From a virus, in the IMG/VR virus record IMGVR_UViG_3300042465_003237, positions 1-35,830 of that record: a stretch of DNA of 35,830 bases. One strand, written 5' to 3'. Position numbers and translations under genes: made by a program. The notes under the pieces are model-generated. The model ran no database searches. It was not told the DNA's origin and worked only from the letters and a program-made list of their open reading frames with translations. Positions 1-35,800 of this stretch are shown piece after piece; position 1 is the first letter of the stretch; every line of letters starts with the position of its first letter.

Positions 1-548
1 CAGGTGCAACTTTTGCTGATGTGTATCCAGCAGCTGCTTCTACTCAAGGTTTAACTCTGATCAATACAACTAGTTTTAGTGGAGTAACCAGCGTATCTTT
101 ACCAGCAAGTACTTTTACTACAACTTACGATAGATATTTAATTCAAGGCAACTTAAGTTGTGCTAATGCTGCAGTTACTGTCAATGGTAGATTGCGAACA
201 GCAGGAACAGATAATTCAGGAACAATCTATAATTATCAGTACATTTCAGCAGGTGGAGCTGGAACTGGCGCTGCGCGTGGGCTTAGTCAAAATATTATTG
301 CTGATATGGGTGGTTATTATGCCACCGCAAATAGAGATAACTCATATATCAATATTGAAATCCGAAAGCCTGCACAAACGGATTACACAACAGGTAAATA
401 TGACTACACTACTATTTCAGAGGGCGCTTTGAATTGGAGCTCTTATTTCTTTGGGACAACAGGAACTACCTCATTTGATTCTTTAAGTTTAATTGCAAGC
501 GCAGGAAATTTTTCAGGCACAATTTCTTGTTACGCATACAACCTTTAA
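1..548 (+). CDS. Tail fibre / receptor-binding protein, C-terminal part (5' truncated by window edge)
   Basis: The reading frame is open from base 3, so the gene begins before the window. The GTG at 21 is an internal Val codon, because the full homologue at 32495-33232 reads through the same place. About the first 126 bases are identical to 32685-32810, then the two diverge, yet both reach their stop at the same length (constant offset 32684). The conserved core has a Tyr-Asp-Arg-Tyr strand, an RLRTAGTDNSGTIYNY segment and a Thr/Ser/Gly-rich beta end typical of fibre tips. Sequence alone does not show the receptor. AAGGAG at its stop serves the next gene. The virion-tip role is inferred from position after tail genes in the homologous copy. 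Confidence 0.75.
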   Translation, partial: GATFADVYPAAASTQGLTLINTTSFSGVTSVSLPASTFTTTYDRYLIQGNLSCANAAVTVNGRLRTAGTDNSGTIYNYQYISAGGAGTGAARGLSQNIIADMGGYYATANRDNSYINIEIRKPAQTDYTTGKYDYTTISEGALNWSSYFFGTTGTTSFDSLSLIASAGNFSGTISCYAYNL

Positions 549-560
549 GGAGTAATGACA

Positions 561-782
561 ATGACTAAAACTGAAACAATTAAAATACAAGACGGAGACC
601 AAGTTATTGAATTAACTGGTGCTGACAAAGAAGCATTTTTGGCTGATAGAGAAGCATCATTAGAAGCCAAACGCCTACTTGAAGCCGAGTATGAGGCAAA
701 AAGAACTGCAAGAGCAAACGCAATAACCAAACTTGCTGAAATTGCTGGTTTAACAGAAGAAGAAATTAATTCCATTTTGTAA
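561..782 (+). CDS. Small fibre-partner protein (possible tail-fibre chaperone), copy A
   Basis: A 73-residue acidic, mostly helical protein. The start at 561 is preferred over the ATG at 555: AAGGAG at 547-552 lies 8 nt from 561 but only 2 nt from 555, and 561 aligns exactly with the start of the paralogue at 33245. A short N-terminal strand (IKIQDGDQVIEL) is followed by a charged helix and a C-terminal AITKL..GLTEEEINSIL motif. Three paralogues occur in the window (here, 33245 and reverse 33464), each directly behind a fibre C-terminal module. This pairing resembles tail-fibre assembly chaperones that travel with their fibre tip, such as phage Mu U. That role is inference from position. Confidence 0.7.
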   Translation: MTKTETIKIQDGDQVIELTGADKEAFLADREASLEAKRLLEAEYEAKRTARANAITKLAEIAGLTEEEINSIL

Positions 783-802
783 TATATAGTTTTGGCTATC
801 AG

Positions 803-825
803 TCCTGCGCTCAAACAACGCAGGA
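803..825 (+). promoter_or_regulatory. 7-bp inverted repeat over ribosome site, copy A
   Basis: TCCTGCG (803-809), 9-nt spacer, CGCAGGA (819-825). The right arm contains the AGGAG ribosome site of the secreted-protein gene, so an RNA hairpin could mask it. The same element occurs at 34161-34183. Copies A and B become alignable again exactly at its left arm, so it also marks the edge of the variable block and could be a recombination site. Confidence 0.55.
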
Positions 826-831
826 GACAAA

Positions 832-1299
832 ATGCGTTTCAAAATAACTGCAATAACAATCACTTGCGCACTAATCGCAACACCAGCAATCGCATTCACA
901 GAACCATACCCAGGAAGTTACCGCGAAACACGCGACATAACTTGCCCTGCACAATACCCAATCAAAACAGGTGAGGGTGTAATGGGTGGTGGGTACATAA
1001 CAACCTGCTGGACACAACAAGCCTGGAATCTACAAATGGCAGGTGGAGATGATTGGACAGCGTGGCTTAACGGCACATACACGCCAGCACCAACACCAAC
1101 ACCAACAATCACAATCACACCTGAACCAGTTGTAGTTGAGCGCGTAGTTTCTGGTGGCACACAAATTGTTGTGAAAGAAGTCGCAGCAGCACAACCTGAA
1201 TTATCAACTGCTAAAAGCATCAGAGCAGAAATAAAAAGGTTGAAAAAAGAAATAACAAAACTCACAAACAAATTAAACAAACTGAAGAAAGATAAGTAA
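832..1299 (+). CDS. Secreted coiled-coil protein, copy A
   Basis: This 155-residue protein has an N-terminal signal peptide (about residues 1-21, basic start, hydrophobic core, AIA cleavage-like site). Next comes a domain of about 55 residues with two Cys (TCPAQ and TTCW) that could form a disulfide, then a Thr-Pro linker (PAPTPTPT) and a Lys-rich C-terminal heptad coiled coil. It is likely exported and attached at the cell surface or wall. The family is not recognised. It lies between the fibre/partner genes and the recombinase, in both copies. Possible roles are superinfection exclusion or a lysis accessory such as a spanin-like factor; neither is shown by the sequence. Confidence 0.75.
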   Translation: MRFKITAITITCALIATPAIAFTEPYPGSYRETRDITCPAQYPIKTGEGVMGGGYITTCWTQQAWNLQMAGGDDWTAWLNGTYTPAPTPTPTITITPEPVVVERVVSGGTQIVVKEVAAAQPELSTAKSIRAEIKRLKKEITKLTNKLNKLKKDK

Positions 1300-1306
1300 A
1301 CAAATT

Positions 1307-2140
1307 ATGGAGCAAGAACAACCTTGGTTTACGATTCAAGAAATACTAAGTGTTTACGAAAAACGTTTTACTGTTTTGGGTCACAAAAGACAACTTTGGC
1401 TGACCGATAAACATTTAATAAATCGGATCAACAAGATTGCTCACCCACAATTTGCAACCACAGAGGATTTAGAAGCAGCAGTTATGCTTTCACCTGCGCA
1501 ATCCACACGCAAAGGCAATATCAACCGATACAAAATGATTTATCGTCATTTGATGTACTTAAAACTTATTCCTGAACGTGAATCACCAGCAGAGAAACTT
1601 CCAAAGTTACGAAAACCAAAATCAATGCCAAGACCTTTTACCCATACCGAGGTGGCTTTGATTATGACTGAAGCTAAAGAACCACAGAAGCATTGGTTTG
1701 TACTTTCGTGCTTCGCAGGGTTAAGGGCCGCAGAAATTTCTTTATGTTCTGGTTCTGACCTTGAAGAAGTCGGTGATAGTTATATGATCCGTATTCCCAA
1801 AGGCAAAGGTGACACTAACTTGGCTTTGCCAGCGCATCCTGTTGTTGTCGAAATGATTAAATCGTATAACACTCTTGGTAGGTTGTGGCCAACAATGAAA
1901 CCTCACTCATTATCTGTTGCCGCTTGTAAAGAATTAAAACGCTTAGGGATAAATAAAAAGTTGCATTCTGGTAGGCACTATTTTGCGACAAGTGCTTATT
2001 CTGTTTCAAATGGTGATATTTTGGCTGTGTCTAAACTTATGCGCCACGCTTCTCCTGCGACCACCGCGATTTACGCGGAGTTAGCTTCACCTGTTGCAAA
2101 AGCGGTTGTAAATGCAATGCAAACTCCAGGTATAGAATAA
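1307..2140 (+). CDS. int: Tyrosine recombinase / integrase, copy A
   Basis: This 277-residue protein has the catalytic set of tyrosine recombinases: Arg140 in FAGLRAAEI, Lys in the IPKGKGD hairpin (165/167), His220 and Arg223 in HSGRH, His247 in LMRHASP and nucleophile Tyr256 in AIYAE. Residues 1-110 form a helical core-binding region with no long arm-binding domain. The gene starts 7 nt after the secreted-protein stop and precedes the holin, so it lies in the late, fibre/lysis region. No adjacent repressor, excisionase or tRNA-like attP is seen. It may integrate the phage or rearrange the neighbouring fibre cassette. Copy B differs by only a handful of residues despite many silent changes, so both are under purifying selection. 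Confidence 0.9.
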   Translation: MEQEQPWFTIQEILSVYEKRFTVLGHKRQLWLTDKHLINRINKIAHPQFATTEDLEAAVMLSPAQSTRKGNINRYKMIYRHLMYLKLIPERESPAEKLPKLRKPKSMPRPFTHTEVALIMTEAKEPQKHWFVLSCFAGLRAAEISLCSGSDLEEVGDSYMIRIPKGKGDTNLALPAHPVVVEMIKSYNTLGRLWPTMKPHSLSVAACKELKRLGINKKLHSGRHYFATSAYSVSNGDILAVSKLMRHASPATTAIYAELASPVAKAVVNAMQTPGIE

Positions 2141-2144
2141 GAAC

Positions 2145-2177
2145 AAGAACCTGCGCAAATACCCTTGAAAGGTTCTT
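2145..2177 (+). promoter_or_regulatory. Hairpin covering holin ribosome site, copy A
   Basis: AAGAACCT (2145-2152) pairs with AGGTTCTT (2170-2177) around a 17-nt loop. It ends one base before the holin ATG at 2179, so the AAAGG ribosome site is partly inside the stem. The arms are conserved at 35515-35547 although the loop has changed. This suggests translational control of holin onset, which is inference. Confidence 0.55.
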
Positions 2178-2178
2178 T

Positions 2179-2430
2179 ATGAATTTGAAAGTTACAAAAG
2201 ACGTTATTTTAAGAAGCGTTGCTTTATTTTTAGTTACAGCTTTACCTGCCATTGGTGCAGGATCATTTATTGGAGTTGAACCTTTAAATTCTGCTGTTAT
2301 TGCAGGGGCGTTAGCCGTGAGTCGTATTGTGACAGATTTAGCCAAAGCATTTTTGGATGATGGAAAATTAACGCAAGAAGAAGTTGATGCCATATTCAAA
2401 AAGGCTAACAAAAAAGAAGAAACCAAATAA
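2179..2430 (+). CDS. Holin-like membrane protein, copy A
   Basis: This 83-residue protein has two hydrophobic stretches (about residues 10-30 and 36-60) and a charged, Lys-rich C-terminus with DGKLTQEEVDAIF, a form common in small phage holins of Gram-positive hosts. It directly precedes the M23 peptidase, with the TAA at 2428-2430 touching the ATG at 2431, giving a holin-endolysin pair. Holins permeabilise the membrane to release or trigger endolysin. Assignment rests on size, topology and position, not on a family signature. Confidence 0.7.
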   Translation: MNLKVTKDVILRSVALFLVTALPAIGAGSFIGVEPLNSAVIAGALAVSRIVTDLAKAFLDDGKLTQEEVDAIFKKANKKEETK

Positions 2431-23591: not shown

Positions 23592-24884
23592 GTGAATCGT
23601 GAACAAAGAAGAGCATTAGAAAAACAAAGCAAAAATTCAAACGTACAAAATCTTGTACAACACCCAAGACGAATCCTCTGGGTATCAAACGCTCCTTGGG
23701 CCACAACTGGCTACGGACAACAAACAGCACAACTAACAACAAGACTTAAAGCCAATGGTGATGAAGTTGCCATTGCTGCAAATTATGGTTTAGAAGCAGC
23801 ATCAACTGTTTGGAATAGTGCAGCGGGTGGCATTCCTGTTTATCCTCGTGGAACTGAAACTTGGTCTAATGATGTGATTCCTGCTCATATGTACGATTGG
23901 GCTTCTAGAGATAAAGATGCAGAACATTTATTGATGACTCTTTTTGATGTTTGGGTTTTCCGTGGTGACAAGTGGAAAGAGTTTCCTGTTGCTTCTTGGA
24001 CTCCTATTGATCACACACCAGCACCACCTGAAGTTGCCGCTTGGTGCAGACTCCCAAATGTTTACCCAATTGCAATGAGCAAGTTTGGTAAAGCAATGTT
24101 AGAAAATGTTGGTATCCAATCTTGGTATGTGCCACACGCAATTGAACCTGTTTTCAAACCAACCAAAACTTTTAAGACCATTGATGGTGATGAAATGACT
24201 GGTCGTGAGTTTATCGGGGTAAGCGAAGATAAATTTATTGTTGGAATGAATGCAGCGAACAAAGGTGTGATGCCTAACAGAAAAGCGTTTGGCGAAAATC
24301 TTTTAGCCTTTTCAATGTTTGCACAAAAATATGATGATGCTGTTTTGTATATACACACTGAAGCATCTGGTTCTCTTGGTGGAATTAAATTAAATGATTT
24401 GATTTTGTCTTGTGGTATTGATCCTAAGAAAGTTATTTTTCCTGATCCTTATTTGTTACGTTCAGGAATCAGTCAAGACATTATGGCAAGCATTTATACA
24501 GCTATGGATGTTTTGCTTGCAACAAGTTACGGAGAGGGTTTCGGAGTTCCAACTTTAGAGAGCCTAGCTTGTTCTACACCTGTAATTGTTTCTAACTTTG
24601 CGGCCTCAACTGAACTGTGCGGTGATGGCTATTTAATTGGTGGGCAACCTCTTTGGGATGCACCACAAAAGGCTTGGTTTCATTTGCCATCTGTTCCAGA
24701 AATTATTGATGCACTAGAACAGGCGTATAACAAAGGCAGAGTCAAAAGTGAAAAGGCTGTTGAGTTTGCAAAACAATACAACGCTGATTTAGTTTTTGAA
24801 ACACAATGGAAACCAACCTTAGATAGTATTTTGCAAAGAGTGGCTTCAGATGGGTCTAGAAACGCCTTAAACGGCAAAATTTAG
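23592..24884 (+). CDS. GT-B fold glycosyltransferase (GT4-like)
   Basis: A 430-residue protein with a basic NREQRRALEKQ start, an N-terminal Rossmann part (RILWVSNAPWATTGYGQQT) and a C-terminal nucleotide-sugar site with SYGEGFGVPTLESLACSTPVIVSN split over the E-x7-E motif. GT4 enzymes transfer sugars retaining configuration. It leads a four-gene cassette inserted between capsid and connector genes. Targets could be capsid or tail proteins, phage DNA or host surface polymer. Confidence 0.8.
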   Translation: MNREQRRALEKQSKNSNVQNLVQHPRRILWVSNAPWATTGYGQQTAQLTTRLKANGDEVAIAANYGLEAASTVWNSAAGGIPVYPRGTETWSNDVIPAHMYDWASRDKDAEHLLMTLFDVWVFRGDKWKEFPVASWTPIDHTPAPPEVAAWCRLPNVYPIAMSKFGKAMLENVGIQSWYVPHAIEPVFKPTKTFKTIDGDEMTGREFIGVSEDKFIVGMNAANKGVMPNRKAFGENLLAFSMFAQKYDDAVLYIHTEASGSLGGIKLNDLILSCGIDPKKVIFPDPYLLRSGISQDIMASIYTAMDVLLATSYGEGFGVPTLESLACSTPVIVSNFAASTELCGDGYLIGGQPLWDAPQKAWFHLPSVPEIIDALEQAYNKGRVKSEKAVEFAKQYNADLVFETQWKPTLDSILQRVASDGSRNALNGKI

Positions 24885-24910
24885 CGTTTTATAGAAGAGG
24901 AGAACCTGTT

Positions 24911-25561
24911 TTGATACCAGCAATGATTGTTCCTGTTTTAACCAGGTATGAACTTTTAGACCGAATGATTCAATCCATAAATTACCCAATCAAGGACTTG
25001 GTGATTGTTGATAATGGGGCTAAACAACAAGACTGGTCTCCAACTTGGAATCAATGGGTAAACAAAATTTGGCATCTTAAATTCCCTAGCAACCTTGGTG
25101 TTCCTGGTTCTTGGAATCTTGGAATCAAATCTTTACCTTTTGCTGATTATTGGTTGGTAACAAATTTTGATGTTGAGTGGGGTGGGGACTCCTTAAAGAT
25201 GTTTCAAGAAATTTCCAGAAAAGATAAATTGGTTTTATCAAATGGTTCACCTGCTTGGTGTGCTTTTTCTTTGGGTTGGGAAGTTGTGCAAAAGGTCGGA
25301 TTGTTTGATGAATCTTTTGTTCCCGCATATTTTGAGGACAATGATTATCAAAGGCGTTGTGAGCACAAAAATATAGAAGTGTTAAGTTCTTTTATTCCTC
25401 TAGCTCACGATAATTCTTCAACTTTAAATGCTGGTTTCAGGAAACAAAACGATTTATCTTTTGAAGCCAATTCGCAATACAACGAATACAAAATCAAAAC
25501 AAAAGACTTTACTGAGGGAAAATGGTCAATTAAGCGTAGGAGACAATTAAGTTGGGATTAA
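24911..25561 (+). CDS. GT-A fold glycosyltransferase (GT2-like)
   Basis: A 216-residue protein with start TTG 24911 behind GAGGAGAA. It has an N-terminal nucleotide-binding strand (AMIVPVLTRYELLDRMIQS, LVIVDNGA), NLGVPGSWNLGI, NFDVEW as the D-x-D-like metal site, and FEDNDYQRR as the catalytic E-D motif of GT2 enzymes. Overlaps the TagD-like gene by 10 nt. It probably works in series with the other cassette enzymes. Confidence 0.75.
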   Translation: MIPAMIVPVLTRYELLDRMIQSINYPIKDLVIVDNGAKQQDWSPTWNQWVNKIWHLKFPSNLGVPGSWNLGIKSLPFADYWLVTNFDVEWGGDSLKMFQEISRKDKLVLSNGSPAWCAFSLGWEVVQKVGLFDESFVPAYFEDNDYQRRCEHKNIEVLSSFIPLAHDNSSTLNAGFRKQNDLSFEANSQYNEYKIKTKDFTEGKWSIKRRRQLSWD

Positions 25562-25980
25562 AAGTTTATACTGGCGGAACTTTTGATTTGTTTCATTCTG
25601 GACACGTTAATTTTTTGAAGCGCTGTCAGCAGATTGCTGGTGTGGATGGTCTGGTTGTTGTGGCTTTGAATACTGATGAGTTTATTTATGATTACAAAAA
25701 GAAGAAACCTGTATTGACTTTTGATCAGAGAAAAGATGTTTTAGAGTCTTGTAGATACGTTAGTCAAGTTGTTGCAAACGTGGGTGGTTCGGATTCTAAA
25801 AAAACTATTGAAATGCTTGACTCGGTTGATGTGATTGCAATTGGTTCTGATTGGGCGAGGAAAGATTATTATGCTCAGATGGAGTTTGATCAAGATTGGT
25901 TAGATGAAAAAAATATTAGTTTGATTTACATTCCCTATACCAAAGGCATTTCGAGCACATTCATTAAAGGCAATTTGTGA
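25552..25980 (+). CDS. Cytidylyltransferase, TagD-like (glycerol-3-phosphate type)
   Basis: A 142-residue protein with YTGGTFDLFHSGHVNFLKRC, the HxGH-type nucleotidyltransferase motif, and a C-terminal GISSTFIK matching the ISTTxIK motif. RSEVV-type loop is replaced by DQRKDVLESC. Members make CDP-glycerol or related CDP-alcohols for teichoic-acid-like polymers or decorated sugars. With two or three glycosyltransferases, it suggests a glycerol-phosphate or sugar modification. It begins at TTG 25552. Confidence 0.8.
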   Translation: MGLKVYTGGTFDLFHSGHVNFLKRCQQIAGVDGLVVVALNTDEFIYDYKKKKPVLTFDQRKDVLESCRYVSQVVANVGGSDSKKTIEMLDSVDVIAIGSDWARKDYYAQMEFDQDWLDEKNISLIYIPYTKGISSTFIKGNL

Positions 25981-32494: not shown

Positions 32495-33232
32495 ATGGGT
32501 TCTGGTTACAGAACGTTTACAGCAGGAGAAGTTTTAACTGCATCTAATGTTCAAAATTATTTGCAAGATCAAGCCGTTATGGTTTTCGCTGGTACTGCTG
32601 CTCGTTCATCTGCTATTGGTACAGCAAACTTTGAAGAGGGAATGCTCACATATTTAACTGACGTTGATAAACTTCAGGTTTACACAGGTGCAACTTTTGC
32701 TGATGTGTATCCAGCAGCTGCTTCTACTCAAGGTTTAACTCTGATCAATACAACTAGTTTTAGTGGAGTAACCAGCGTATCTTTACCAGCAAGTACTTTT
32801 ACTACAACTTATGACAGATATTTAATTAAAGGCAATTTAAGTTGTTCTAATGCCACTGTAGATATAAATGGCAGATTACGAACAGCAGGAACAGATAATT
32901 CAGGAACAATTTATAATTATCAGTACCTTAGTTCGAGTGGAGTTGGTGTTGGCGCAGGGCGTGCAACTTCTCAAAATTTAATTAGTGGAATGGGTGGTTA
33001 TTATCCAACAGCAGGTAGAGACAATTCTGATATCAACATTGAAATTCGCAAACCTGCTCAAACAGATTACACATTAGGATATTACCAATATCCAACAGTT
33101 ACAGAAGGCAACATTGGTCAAATTCTTTATTTGTTTGGAACAACTGGAACTACATCATTTGATTCGCTGAGTTTAATTGCAAGTGCTGGAACAATTACAG
33201 GCACTATTTATTGTTACGCATATAACGATTAA
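32495..33232 (+). CDS. Tail fibre / receptor-binding protein, full length (copy B)
   Basis: A 245-residue protein with AAGGAG ribosome site. Residues 1-75 (YRTFTAGEVLTASNVQNYL, LTYLTDVDKLQVYTG) are a virion-attachment module common in actinophage fibre proteins. From about residue 80 the beta-rich C-terminal module begins. Nucleotides 32685-32810 match 1-126 exactly; beyond them copies A and B diverge. A third version of the same C-terminal module lies on the opposite strand at 33684-34139. Constant N-terminus plus variable tip is the design expected for host-range variation. Confidence 0.8.
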   Translation: MGSGYRTFTAGEVLTASNVQNYLQDQAVMVFAGTAARSSAIGTANFEEGMLTYLTDVDKLQVYTGATFADVYPAAASTQGLTLINTTSFSGVTSVSLPASTFTTTYDRYLIKGNLSCSNATVDINGRLRTAGTDNSGTIYNYQYLSSSGVGVGAGRATSQNLISGMGGYYPTAGRDNSDINIEIRKPAQTDYTLGYYQYPTVTEGNIGQILYLFGTTGTTSFDSLSLIASAGTITGTIYCYAYND

Positions 33233-33244
33233 GGAACAATAACA

Positions 33245-33475
33245 ATGGCTAAAAAAGAAGAAACAATTAAAATACAAGATGGTGAAACAGTTATTGAACT
33301 TACTGGGGATGACAAAGAAACTTTTATTGCCGATAGAGAGCAAATGGTAGAAGCCAAAGCATTACTTGAAAGCGAAGCACAAGCCAAGAAACAAGCGCGT
33401 ATTGATGCAATAACTAAATTAGGTCAGGCTTCAGGATTAACAACAGAAGAAATAGAATCAATCTTAAATATTTAG
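33245..33475 (+). CDS. Small fibre-partner protein, copy B
   Basis: A 76-residue paralogue of the proteins at 561 and reverse 33464. AAGGA precedes the start. The N-terminal IKIQDGETVIELTGDDKE and C-terminal AITKLGQASGLTTEEIESILNI are separated by a charged helix. It directly follows the fibre gene and its 3' end overlaps the reverse paralogue by 12 nt. Probable fibre-tip chaperone by position. Confidence 0.7.
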   Translation: MAKKEETIKIQDGETVIELTGDDKETFIADREQMVEAKALLESEAQAKKQARIDAITKLGQASGLTTEEIESILNI

Positions 33476-33481
33476 TATTGA
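33458..33481. repeat. Near-palindrome where two partner genes converge
   Basis: A 24-bp dyad with 10 of 12 pairs matching (core TTAAATATTTA, arms TCAAT/ATTGA). Both strands encode the same last residues SILNI and stop within it (TAG at 33473-33475 on +, TAA at 33466-33464 on -). It may be a bidirectional terminator or the symmetric centre of an inversion cassette. Confidence 0.65.
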
Positions 33482-33700
33482 GTTAATTTCTGCTTCAGAT
33501 AGACCAGATGCTGCACCTAGTTTGGTAATCGCATCTATTCTTAGTTGCTTCTTTGCCTCATACTCGGCTTCAAGTATCGCTGATTCTTGGATACGAATTT
33601 CTCTTTCAGCGATAAAGGCTTCTTTTTCAGCACCTAAAAGTTCAACCACTTCATCATTAAAACCAATAAGAATTTTTTCTGTTTTATTTAGCGTAGCCAT
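33464..33700 (-). CDS. Small fibre-partner protein, reverse copy C
   Basis: A 78-residue paralogue on the minus strand (MATLNKTEKILIGFNDEVVEL ... AITKLGAASGLSEAEINSILNI, positions as described). The start at 33700 overlaps the end of the reverse fibre module by 17 nt, so the pair is arranged like the forward fibre-partner pair. It is one of only two minus-strand coding segments of the window. It is probably silent in this orientation, since no promoter or constant fibre part precedes it. Confidence 0.65.
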   Translation of the reverse strand: MATLNKTEKILIGFNDEVVELLGAEKEAFIAEREIRIQESAILEAEYEAKKQLRIDAITKLGAASGLSEAEINSILNI

Positions 33701-34139
33701 ACACACTCACAGTTCCTGTCATTGTTCCTGATACTGGATAAATTCTTATTCCATCAAATTGGCTTGTGAGTCCGTGATTCAAAGATACAATATTTAATGT
33801 ATTTGCCCCACGACTTTGCGTTGCAATACCTGTTGTTATTTCTGCAACATTTGGTCCACCAAGTTCAATTACTATTTGAGATTTGTTTGAAAATGTTTCA
33901 GCAATAAACCAATCGGTAGTAAAAGTACGGGCAGCACTTACTGAAGTAAGGTCTCCTCTAACTGTTTGATAACCATAATCTGTTGCAATAGTTGTACCAG
34001 CAACTCTGCCTTGCATTTTTATGTCGCCACCCGAATGTGATGCTCTAATAATAATTTTGTAATTTTCATAAGTTGAACTAAAAAGTGAATCAACATTTTG
34101 AGCCGCTACTGCACTAATCCTAATTAAATTTATGCTAAA
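33684..34139 (-). CDS. Silent alternative tail-fibre C-terminal module, reverse strand
   Basis: The minus-strand frame is open from 34139 (just after an in-frame TAA) to the stop at 33684, 151 residues. It begins FSINLIRISAVAAQ and aligns with the forward module: LIRIS with LINTT, SSTYENYKI with TTTYDRYLI, KMQGRVAGT with DINGRLRTAGT, and GTMTGTVSVYGYA with GTITGTIYCYAY. The tip sequence between is quite different. No N-terminal attachment domain and no credible start upstream; the ATG at 34016 is internal to the homology. It looks like a stored receptor-binding variant that needs DNA rearrangement for expression. Confidence 0.65.
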   Translation of the reverse strand, partial: FSINLIRISAVAAQNVDSLFSSTYENYKIIIRASHSGGDIKMQGRVAGTTIATDYGYQTVRGDLTSVSAARTFTTDWFIAETFSNKSQIVIELGGPNVAEITTGIATQSRGANTLNIVSLNHGLTSQFDGIRIYPVSGTMTGTVSVYGYAK

Positions 34140-34160
34140 TTACATTCAAGCAAGTTAAGT

Positions 34161-34183
34161 TCCTGCGCTCAAACAACGCAGGA
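34161..34183 (+). promoter_or_regulatory. 7-bp inverted repeat over ribosome site, copy B
   Basis: TCCTGCG (34161-34167), 9-nt spacer, CGCAGGA (34177-34183), as at 803-825. The extra reverse module ends shortly upstream and A/B identity resumes at this dyad. Arm and spacer sizes are compatible with either an RNA hairpin or a tyrosine-recombinase core-type site. Confidence 0.55.
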
Positions 34184-34189
34184 GACAAA

Positions 34190-34669
34190 ATGCGTTTCAA
34201 AATAACTGCAATAACAATCACTTGCGCACTAATCGCAACACCAGCAATCGCATTCACAGAACCATACCCAGGAAGTTATCGCGAAACACGCGACATAACT
34301 TGCCCTGCACAATACCCAATCAAAACAGGTGAGGGTGTAATGGGTGGTGGCTACATAACAACCTGCTGGACACAACAAGCCTGGAATCTACAAATGGCAG
34401 GTGGAGATGATTGGACAGCGTGGCTTAACGGCACATACACGCCAGCACCAACACCAACACCAACGATCACAATCACACCTGAACCAGTTGTGGTTGAGCG
34501 CGTAGTTGAGCGCGTAGTTTCTGGTGGCACACAAATTGTTGTGAAAGAAGTTCCAGTAGCACAACCTGAGTTATCTACTGCTAAAAGCATCAGAGCAGAA
34601 ATAAAAAGGTTAAAGAAAGAAATAACAAAACTCACAAAGAAATTAAACAAACTGAAGAAAGATAAGTAA
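34190..34669 (+). CDS. Secreted coiled-coil protein, copy B
   Basis: A 159-residue version of the protein at 832, nearly identical through signal peptide, Cys domain and Thr-Pro linker. It contains four extra residues (VVER repeated) from an in-frame 12-bp tandem duplication near 34492-34515, and small changes before the coiled coil (EVPVAQ versus EVAAAQ). The repeat lengthens the linker before the coil. Same uncertain surface role. Confidence 0.75.
   Translation: MRFKITAITITCALIATPAIAFTEPYPGSYRETRDITCPAQYPIKTGEGVMGGGYITTCWTQQAWNLQMAGGDDWTAWLNGTYTPAPTPTPTITITPEPVVVERVVERVVSGGTQIVVKEVPVAQPELSTAKSIRAEIKRLKKEITKLTKKLNKLKKDK
34492..34515 (+). repeat. 12-bp in-frame tandem duplication
   Basis: GTTGAGCGCGTA occurs twice in tandem here but once at 1135-1146. 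It adds Val-Glu-Arg-Val and explains the shift of alignment offset from 33358 to 33370. Confidence 0.85.
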
Positions 34670-34676
34670 ACAAATT

Positions 34677-35510
34677 ATGGAGCAAGAACAGCCTTGGTTT
34701 ACGATTGAAGAAATACTAAGTGTTTATGAAAAACGTTTTATTGTTTTAGGTCATAAAAGACAACTTTGGCTGACTGATAAACATTTAATAAATCGGATCA
34801 ACAAGATTGTTCATCCACAATTTGCAACAACAGAGGATTTAGAAGCAGCAGTTATGCTGTCACCTGCGCAATCCACACGCAAAGGAAATATCAACCGATA
34901 CAAGATGATTTATCGTCACTTGATGTATTTGAAACTTATTCCTGAACGTGAATCACCAGCAGAAAAACTACCTAAATTACGTAAACCAAAATCAATGCCA
35001 AGACCTTTTACCCATACCGAGGTGGCTTTAATTATGAAAGAAGCCAAAGAACCTCAAAGGCATTGGTTCATACTTTCGTGCTTCGCAGGCTTGAGGGCCG
35101 CAGAAATTTCTTTATGTTCAGGTTCTGACCTTGAAGAAGTTGGTGATAGTTATATGATCCGTATTCCTAAAGGCAAAGGAGATACAAATCTGGCTTTACC
35201 AGCGCATCCTGTGGTTGTCGAAATGATCAAATCGTATAACACTTTTGGTAGGTTATGGCCAACAATGAAACCTCACTCATTATCTGTTGCCGCTTGTAAA
35301 GAATTAAAAAGATTAGGTATAAACAAAAAGTTGCATTCTGGTAGGCACTATTTTGCAACAAGTGCTTATTCTGTTTCCAATGGAGATATTTTGGCTGTAT
35401 CAAAATTGATGAGACACGCATCACCTGCAACCACAGCGATTTATGCTGAGTTGGCCTCACCTGTTGCAAAAGCCGTTGTAAACGCAATGCAAACTCCAGG
35501 TATAGAATAG
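34677..35510 (+). CDS. int: Tyrosine recombinase / integrase, copy B
   Basis: A 277-residue protein collinear with the copy at 1307, with all catalytic residues intact (Arg140, Lys165/167, His220, Arg223, His247, Tyr256). Amino-acid changes are few and conservative (for example Gln to Glu at 11, Thr to Lys at 121, Leu to Phe at 190) against numerous third-position changes. It is the closest recombinase to the reverse fibre module, so it is the natural candidate to act on it. Confidence 0.9.
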   Translation: MEQEQPWFTIEEILSVYEKRFIVLGHKRQLWLTDKHLINRINKIVHPQFATTEDLEAAVMLSPAQSTRKGNINRYKMIYRHLMYLKLIPERESPAEKLPKLRKPKSMPRPFTHTEVALIMKEAKEPQRHWFILSCFAGLRAAEISLCSGSDLEEVGDSYMIRIPKGKGDTNLALPAHPVVVEMIKSYNTFGRLWPTMKPHSLSVAACKELKRLGINKKLHSGRHYFATSAYSVSNGDILAVSKLMRHASPATTAIYAELASPVAKAVVNAMQTPGIE

Positions 35511-35514
35511 AACT

Positions 35515-35547
35515 AAGAACCTGCGCAAACACCATTGAAAGGTTCTT
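35515..35547 (+). promoter_or_regulatory. Hairpin covering holin ribosome site, copy B
   Basis: AAGAACCT (35515-35522) pairs with AGGTTCTT (35540-35547), ending one base before the holin ATG. Arms are identical to copy A while the loop has changed, which supports selection on pairing. Confidence 0.55.
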
Positions 35548-35548
35548 T

Positions 35549-35800
35549 ATGAATTTGAAAATTACAAAAGATGTTATTTTAAGAAGCGTTGCTTTGTTTT
35601 TAGTTACAGCCTTACCTGCTATCGGTGCAGGATCATTTATTGGAGTTGAACCTATCAATTCTGCTGTTATTGCAGGGGCATTAGCCGTGAGCCGTATTGT
35701 TACAGATTTGGCCAAAGCATTTTTGGATGATGGAAAATTAACGCAAGAAGAAGTTGATGCCATATTCAAAAAGGCTAACAAAAAAGAAGAAACCAAGTAA
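35549..35800 (+). CDS. Holin-like membrane protein, copy B
   Basis: An 83-residue protein differing from the copy at 2179 at only a few positions (Val to Ile at 5, Leu to Ile near 36), with the same two hydrophobic stretches and charged tail. It ends the repeated block. The 30 bases after it are not the M23 gene; they leave a short open frame from TTG 35803 that runs off the window and might begin a different lytic enzyme. Confidence 0.7.
   Translation: MNLKITKDVILRSVALFLVTALPAIGAGSFIGVEPINSAVIAGALAVSRIVTDLAKAFLDDGKLTQEEVDAIFKKANKKEETK

Follow-up and report, generated by a model that had tools for sequence, protein, structure and literature searches.

The window, our term for the whole virus record of 35,830 bases that was analysed, very probably carries between positions 32760 and 34117 an invertible tail-fibre cassette of 1.36 kb, which holds two versions of a fibre tip with its partner gene and is flipped at the short sequence TTAGTGSAGTA (S = G or C), most likely by the adjacent recombinase. 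Since a near-identical relative was found with the segment flipped, the most likely reading is that these phages swap their host-recognition molecule by turning a genome segment around. We propose that a site-specific recombinase, for which the adjacent armless tyrosine enzyme is the likeliest candidate, would act on two sites, one where the constant N-terminus ends within the fibre gene and a second, inverted one just ahead of the silent tip; by exchanging strands within TTAGTG it would flip the 1.36-kb segment. The flip would fuse the constant N-terminus in frame with the other tip and place the cognate partner directly behind it, while the first pair of tip and partner would fall silent. 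Receptors are probably bound by the tip end of the fibre, so that flipping would alter the host surface that is recognised, and with it presumably the host range.

On the plus strand of the window, the tape-measure gene is followed by the gene of a 408-aa tail protein, the fibre gene and its partner gene; the parts of the locus, including its second copy at the other end of the window, are as follows:

1-2430, plus strand: second copy of the locus, from another strain, with a site at 76, a different tip, one partner gene and a recombinase, and with no reverse pair
32495-33232, plus strand: tail-fibre gene in the expressed position, an open reading frame in which the constant N-terminus is joined to tip A
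32495-32761, plus strand: constant N-terminus of the fibre, 89 aa, conserved in relatives
32760-32770, plus strand: inner crossover site TTAGTGGAGTA, an exact match and the breakpoint in contigs L006 and L091
32762-33229, plus strand: tip A, the variable C-terminal domain of the fibre
33245-33475, plus strand: partner gene of tip A, 76 aa, with an alpha-type C-terminus, from its open reading frame and paralogy
33464-33475, no strand: tail-to-tail overlap of both partner genes, the centre of the cassette, from comparison of a 51-bp centre
33464-33700, minus strand: partner gene of tip C, 78 aa from the ATG at 33700, with a beta-type C-terminus, from its open reading frame and paralogy
33684-34115, minus strand: tip C, an alternative fibre tip lacking a start codon, its frame open over 143 codons counted from the site; from frame and fold
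34107-34117, minus strand: outer crossover site TTAGTGCAGTA, inverted with respect to the inner site, from a motif match
34118-34189, plus strand: outer flank with a hairpin, TCCTGCG-(loop)-CGCAGGA, ahead of the next gene
34190-34669, plus strand: 159-aa gene between cassette and recombinase, an open reading frame with a hydrophobic N-terminal segment
about 34677-35510, plus strand: putatively armless tyrosine recombinase of 277 aa, the proposed invertase, from PHROG and Gp33 matches and catalytic residues

An earlier note on this DNA had described a forward fibre tip and partner followed by a reverse partner and a startless tip, and all four frames are indeed present; the reverse open frame spans 33684-34139 (minus strand), with no ATG upstream of tip C. 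It had also taken the two tips for alternatives, each with its own partner paralogue, which agrees with the homology of tips A and C at the protein level (31% identity, E 6e-6) and with the paralogy of the two partner genes of the window, and it had correctly placed the recombinase two genes downstream of the cassette, a single gene (34190-34669) lying between them. Among relatives the fibre N-terminus is conserved, and the tips are 20-35% identical to one another. The names 'tail fibre', 'partner' and 'host range' are given here on the strength of position, homology and fold.

TTAGTGSAGTA occurs in exactly three copies in the window, at 76 (plus strand), 32760 (plus) and 34117 (minus), and all of them sit at tip boundaries. 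The inner site (32760-32770) and the outer site (34107-34117) form a short inverted repeat, and the copy at 76 is the equivalent site within the second, divergent copy of the locus. The earlier note had cautioned that no long inverted repeat was visible at the junctions; this part of the caveat stands, no long one being found in the region, but a short one exists, and a search of the junctions places TTAGTGSAGTA within about 35 bp of the two positions, 32736 and 34139, that the note had named. The longest inverted pair (32 nt, 75%, 32797-32828 and 34052-34083) was rejected as a site, as it reflects the homology of the tips.

In the contigs found through the recombinase, the site is present in every fibre gene that covers the boundary, and the inverted site at every reverse tip that covers its own; 11 further contigs with a related recombinase show the same head-to-head layout, with the site at every covered edge of the cassette. 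When forward and reverse sites were compared in 10 two-pair loci, agreement was 100% at ten of the 11 columns and 50% at the S column, and it was 10-20% in the two columns left of the site. The four site codons, TTT AGT GSA GTA, are invariant in 15 of 15 fibres, while codon choice differs at nearly all other invariant residues of the same fibres, which argues that the site is constrained at the DNA level and not by the protein alone. The outer site, although it lies in untranslated DNA, is conserved as well.

Beyond this set, an unaltered copy of the boundary sequence ACTAGTTTTAGTGSAGTA is found in more than 100 IMG/VR contigs (L035-L150), within a fibre gene that has a single partner gene behind it; in most of these contigs no recombinase is in view. 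A scan for contexts of the outer site returned mostly unrelated phage DNA (the AGACCCCTATGATTAGGATTAGTG family) and zero new flips; many unrelated viral contigs (L151-L180) have AGACCCCTATGATTAGGATTAGTGCAGTAACGAAGCGGATCTGC, a conserved stretch of another gene that was picked up by the outer-site pattern.

The most direct evidence for inversion comes from the contigs L006 and L091. Upstream of the fibre site the two agree in every one of the 2,275 bases that L006 provides. Their 1,385-base cassettes, measured from site to site, are likewise identical but inverted with respect to each other: what is the forward tip in one contig is the startless reverse tip in the other. The breakpoint falls inside TTAGTG: the base at S moves with the tip, those to the left of TTAGTG remain in place, and the crossover thus lies within these six bases. 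L091 stops exactly at the outer site and leaves the far junction uncovered, an ending that resembles an assembly branch and is suggestive only. A further mark of orientation is the asymmetric 51-bp centre at which the partner genes end tail to tail; the window shares it unchanged with seven other loci, and L030 has its reverse complement. With a longer comparison, the centre was found reversed in L008, L013, L020, L030 and L091, and 7 other cassettes, complete or partial, have it in the orientation of the window. In L020 it is reversed although the downstream flank matches L019 in the same direction.

The inversion that had been suggested for this cassette is thus borne out at the level of the group, by the direct flip between L006 and L091, by the reversed centre in five contigs (L091 included) and by the inverted sites at both ends; the window's own cassette was not seen flipped. 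Both orientations, with breaks at inverted sites, occur in the group and were not observed for the window's tips, which were found in no other contig searched, in any orientation. No fusion of the constant N-terminus to tip C was found in the contigs searched, and a search of IMG/VR for close relatives of tip C gave one weak match only.

The silent tips appear to be kept in working order. Counted from the site, every one of the 12 complete reverse tips stays open over 143-158 codons in the frame of the fibre, with no upstream ATG; when DNA of equal composition is shuffled, a stretch remains open over such a length in about 1 case in 10,000. The model of tip C is a confident beta-sandwich (pLDDT 93.8), whose best match among predicted viral proteins is a 'tail fiber protein' (E 2.6e-16, TM 0.91). 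Matches of this fold in the PDB are weak and partly galectin-like, and the fibre gave no profile match to the PDB. Position and predicted fold together suggest a receptor-binding role for the tip.

The recombinase beside the cassette matches PHROG integrases (E 2e-24) and Xer-type models, and its nearest solved relative is Gp33 (PDB 5vfz, E 3e-13). Gp33 (5vfz) is the armless Brujita integrase, an enzyme with no arm-binding domain. With an Xer-like core and catalytic region in 277 aa, the recombinase of the window also seems to be armless, judging from its length and the span of the alignment. Its catalytic residues R140, K167, H220, R223, H247 and Y256 are invariant in 33 of 33 copies. Among the window proteins scanned, Pfam recognised no other site-specific recombinase and no resolvase/invertase (serine) domain. 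In L007, L008 and L013, from which the 159-aa gene is missing, the recombinase lies directly beyond the outer site. Among contigs that extend 2.2 kb past the fibre site, two pairs are present in 8 of 18 with the recombinase and in 0 of 49 without it (Fisher 7e-6, uncorrected for ancestry). Along the recombinase tree the state changes between one pair and two at least 5 times. These findings suggest that the adjacent armless tyrosine recombinase is most likely the invertase of the cassette. For the tyrosine recombinase named in the earlier note, this means that it is the best candidate, given its intact catalytic residues, its standing as the only one recognised by Pfam and its link to two-pair loci, and that its catalysis of the flip is a matter of inference.

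One may ask whether the cassette is inverted by another enzyme, the adjacent recombinase being a lysogeny integrase whose attachment site lies elsewhere. The protein does resemble actinophage lysogeny integrases: Gp33 is its nearest solved relative, and its relatives in isolated phages are annotated as tyrosine integrases. It also occurs with one pair only, in 10 of the 18 recombinase-bearing contigs and in the 5' copy of the window, so that it is kept where there is nothing to flip, and in one group of Bifidobacterium prophages an inversion is reported with no recombinase adjacent (PMC6109161). Nevertheless, we regard this reading as unlikely, since the scanned window proteins offer Pfam no other candidate, the enzyme sits right beside the outer site in the three contigs named above, and two-pair cassettes with enough downstream sequence are found only alongside it. 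Moreover, a search of 84,980 bacterial and archaeal genomes (GTDB), which reaches close relatives only, found no relative of the recombinase, such as prophages would give.

The adjacent recombinase as invertase has also to be weighed against readings in which no site-specific system is at work. Ordinary homologous recombination between similar sequences might turn the segment, given that tips and partners are homologous and that tip swaps between phages break near the conserved boundary; yet what the two outer sites have in common amounts to no more than 6-11 bp, ending abruptly on the left, and the site is conserved at the DNA level. Such a length is too short for efficient general recombination, and we judge this origin of the inversions very unlikely. 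Alternatively, the reverse pair could be a frozen inverted duplication, left over from a rearrangement long ago and no longer functional; this would fit a reverse tip with no start codon and the failure to find a promoter above chance (no terminator, promoter or RNA-structure signal near the cassette exceeded shuffled sequence). Against it stand the 12 complete reverse tips, which are all intact with protein identities of about 30%, an outer site that is conserved although untranslated, and the existence of both orientations in nature, a point on which L006 and L091 contradict it for the group; we therefore hold it to be extremely improbable.

Tips also move between phages, as three comparisons show. 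L014 and L017 are 99% identical on both sides of unrelated tips and partner N-halves; L018, with two pairs, and L017, with one, match at 99% identity over the DNA that begins immediately beyond the outer site; and L021 (1185-1619) and L035 (5412-5846) share a tip that is 99% identical in DNA on backbones of different phage lineages, the identity beginning about 19 bases before the site. The segments L014 6736-7327 and L017 3300-3875 have the appearance of a wholesale swap of the tip module. This movement may proceed by homologous exchange or possibly at the site. The site and the recombinase might even act together as an integron-like exchange port, at which pairs of tip and partner are gained and lost at TTAGTGSAGTA; the repeated state changes (at least 5), the unrelated tips of L014 and L017 and the tip shared by L021 and L035 hint at it. 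We think such a port quite improbable, plain homologous exchange being simpler, because the forward site is found in more than 100 contigs, most with no recombinase in view.

As to known systems, in the G segment of phage Mu and the Cin segment of P1 an alternative fibre C-terminus and its cognate partner (S/U versus S'/U') are stored head to head and flipped as a unit. Gin is a serine recombinase that acts at 26-bp gix sites with a Fis-bound enhancer, and inversion as a means of receptor switching in phages is classically associated with the serine recombinases of enterobacterial ones. The cassette had been called Mu G-like, which holds for layout and logic: two pairs of fibre C-terminus and partner lie head to head, one fused to a constant N-terminus, with a recombinase adjacent. 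It does not hold for family. The recombinase of the window is of the tyrosine family, unlike the serine recombinase Gin of Mu, and the site appears to be a different one, the conserved inverted repeat shared by both cassette ends being only 11 bp; as the serine recombinase, the defining part of the Mu G family, was looked for and not recognised by Pfam among the window proteins scanned, the cassette is no member of it. The Rci shufflon of IncI plasmids, which varies a pilus protein through many segments with a tyrosine recombinase, is like our cassette in the type of enzyme, the short asymmetric sites and the interchangeable C-terminal adhesin tips, and unlike it in acting on a plasmid pilus protein, in its many segments and in the sequence of its site. 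Brujita-type integrases provide in Gp33 the nearest solved relative of the recombinase (E 3e-13), but they are known for prophage integration, and no link of theirs to the inversion of fibre genes is known.

Of the systems described so far, the putative Rin shufflon of Bifidobacterium dnaJ2 prophages (Mavrich et al. 2018, PMC6109161) comes nearest, a proposal of receptor switching by a tyrosine recombinase in a paper that also names the Gin and Cin systems of Mu and P1. Rin has an XerD-like armless tyrosine recombinase, an 11-bp asymmetric rix site, TTCCCTAACCC, and several alternative segments with several rix sites, the alternative tips being about 6-30% identical. Both systems belong to actinobacterial phages and combine a constant receptor-binding N-terminus with interchangeable C-termini, an armless tyrosine recombinase beside the locus, an asymmetric 11-bp site and naturally inverted variants. 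Our cassette differs in having exactly two pairs of tip and partner head to head between two TTAGTGSAGTA sites, and in a partner gene for each tip, partner genes not being described for Rin in the text consulted. The rix site has no match in the window with up to 1 mismatch, and mapped recombinase-bearing relatives carry at most two tips per locus, whereas a Rin-type shufflon would have more than two segments. Here the system takes a compact shape, with two versions and an 11-bp site of its own, in actinophage-like siphoviruses that form an uncultured group, and a natural flip is seen on comparing two contigs that are otherwise almost the same. The recombinase offers a testable, minimal candidate inversion system, and with the fibre boundary site in over 100 public contigs, the metagenomes already available allow both the switching and the swapping of tips to be quantified.

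Regarding the second copy of the locus, bases 1-127 of the window are identical to 32685-32811, and the fibre segment of the 5' copy is about 80% identical in protein to that of the 3' copy; from the 159-aa gene through the end of the next small gene, the two copies (1-2430 and 32685-35800) share about 93% DNA identity. The length of this exact overlap, 127 bases, is a common maximum for assembly k-mers. With its ends overlapping in this way, the contig probably represents a closed loop of about 32.7 kb that was left in linear form, the assembler having crossed between two strain variants; consequently, one-pair and two-pair forms probably coexist in the sample. The hairpin TCCTGCG/CGCAGGA stands just 5' of the 159-aa gene in both copies (about 34160-34185, and 803-827) and is present, with changes, in many relatives; the fold of the outer-flank hairpin is no better than that of shuffled sequence (z -0.7).

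The window encodes an HK97-type capsid protein, a portal protein, a large terminase, an M23 peptidase and a WhiB protein. Among isolated phages, Pontimonas phage phiPsal1 is the closest, at 58% for the terminase and 55% for the N-terminus of the fibre; it is a circular 31-kb actinophage in which TTAGTGSAGTA is absent and no recombinase of comparable kind is annotated. The host is presumably actinobacterial, and the relatives of such phages suggest a freshwater habitat. Between the capsid and tail genes, at 23592-25980, the window has glycosyltransferase and cytidylyltransferase-like genes; phiPsal1 likewise has glycosyltransferases between its capsid and tail genes, and the region may possibly serve glycosylation of the virion.
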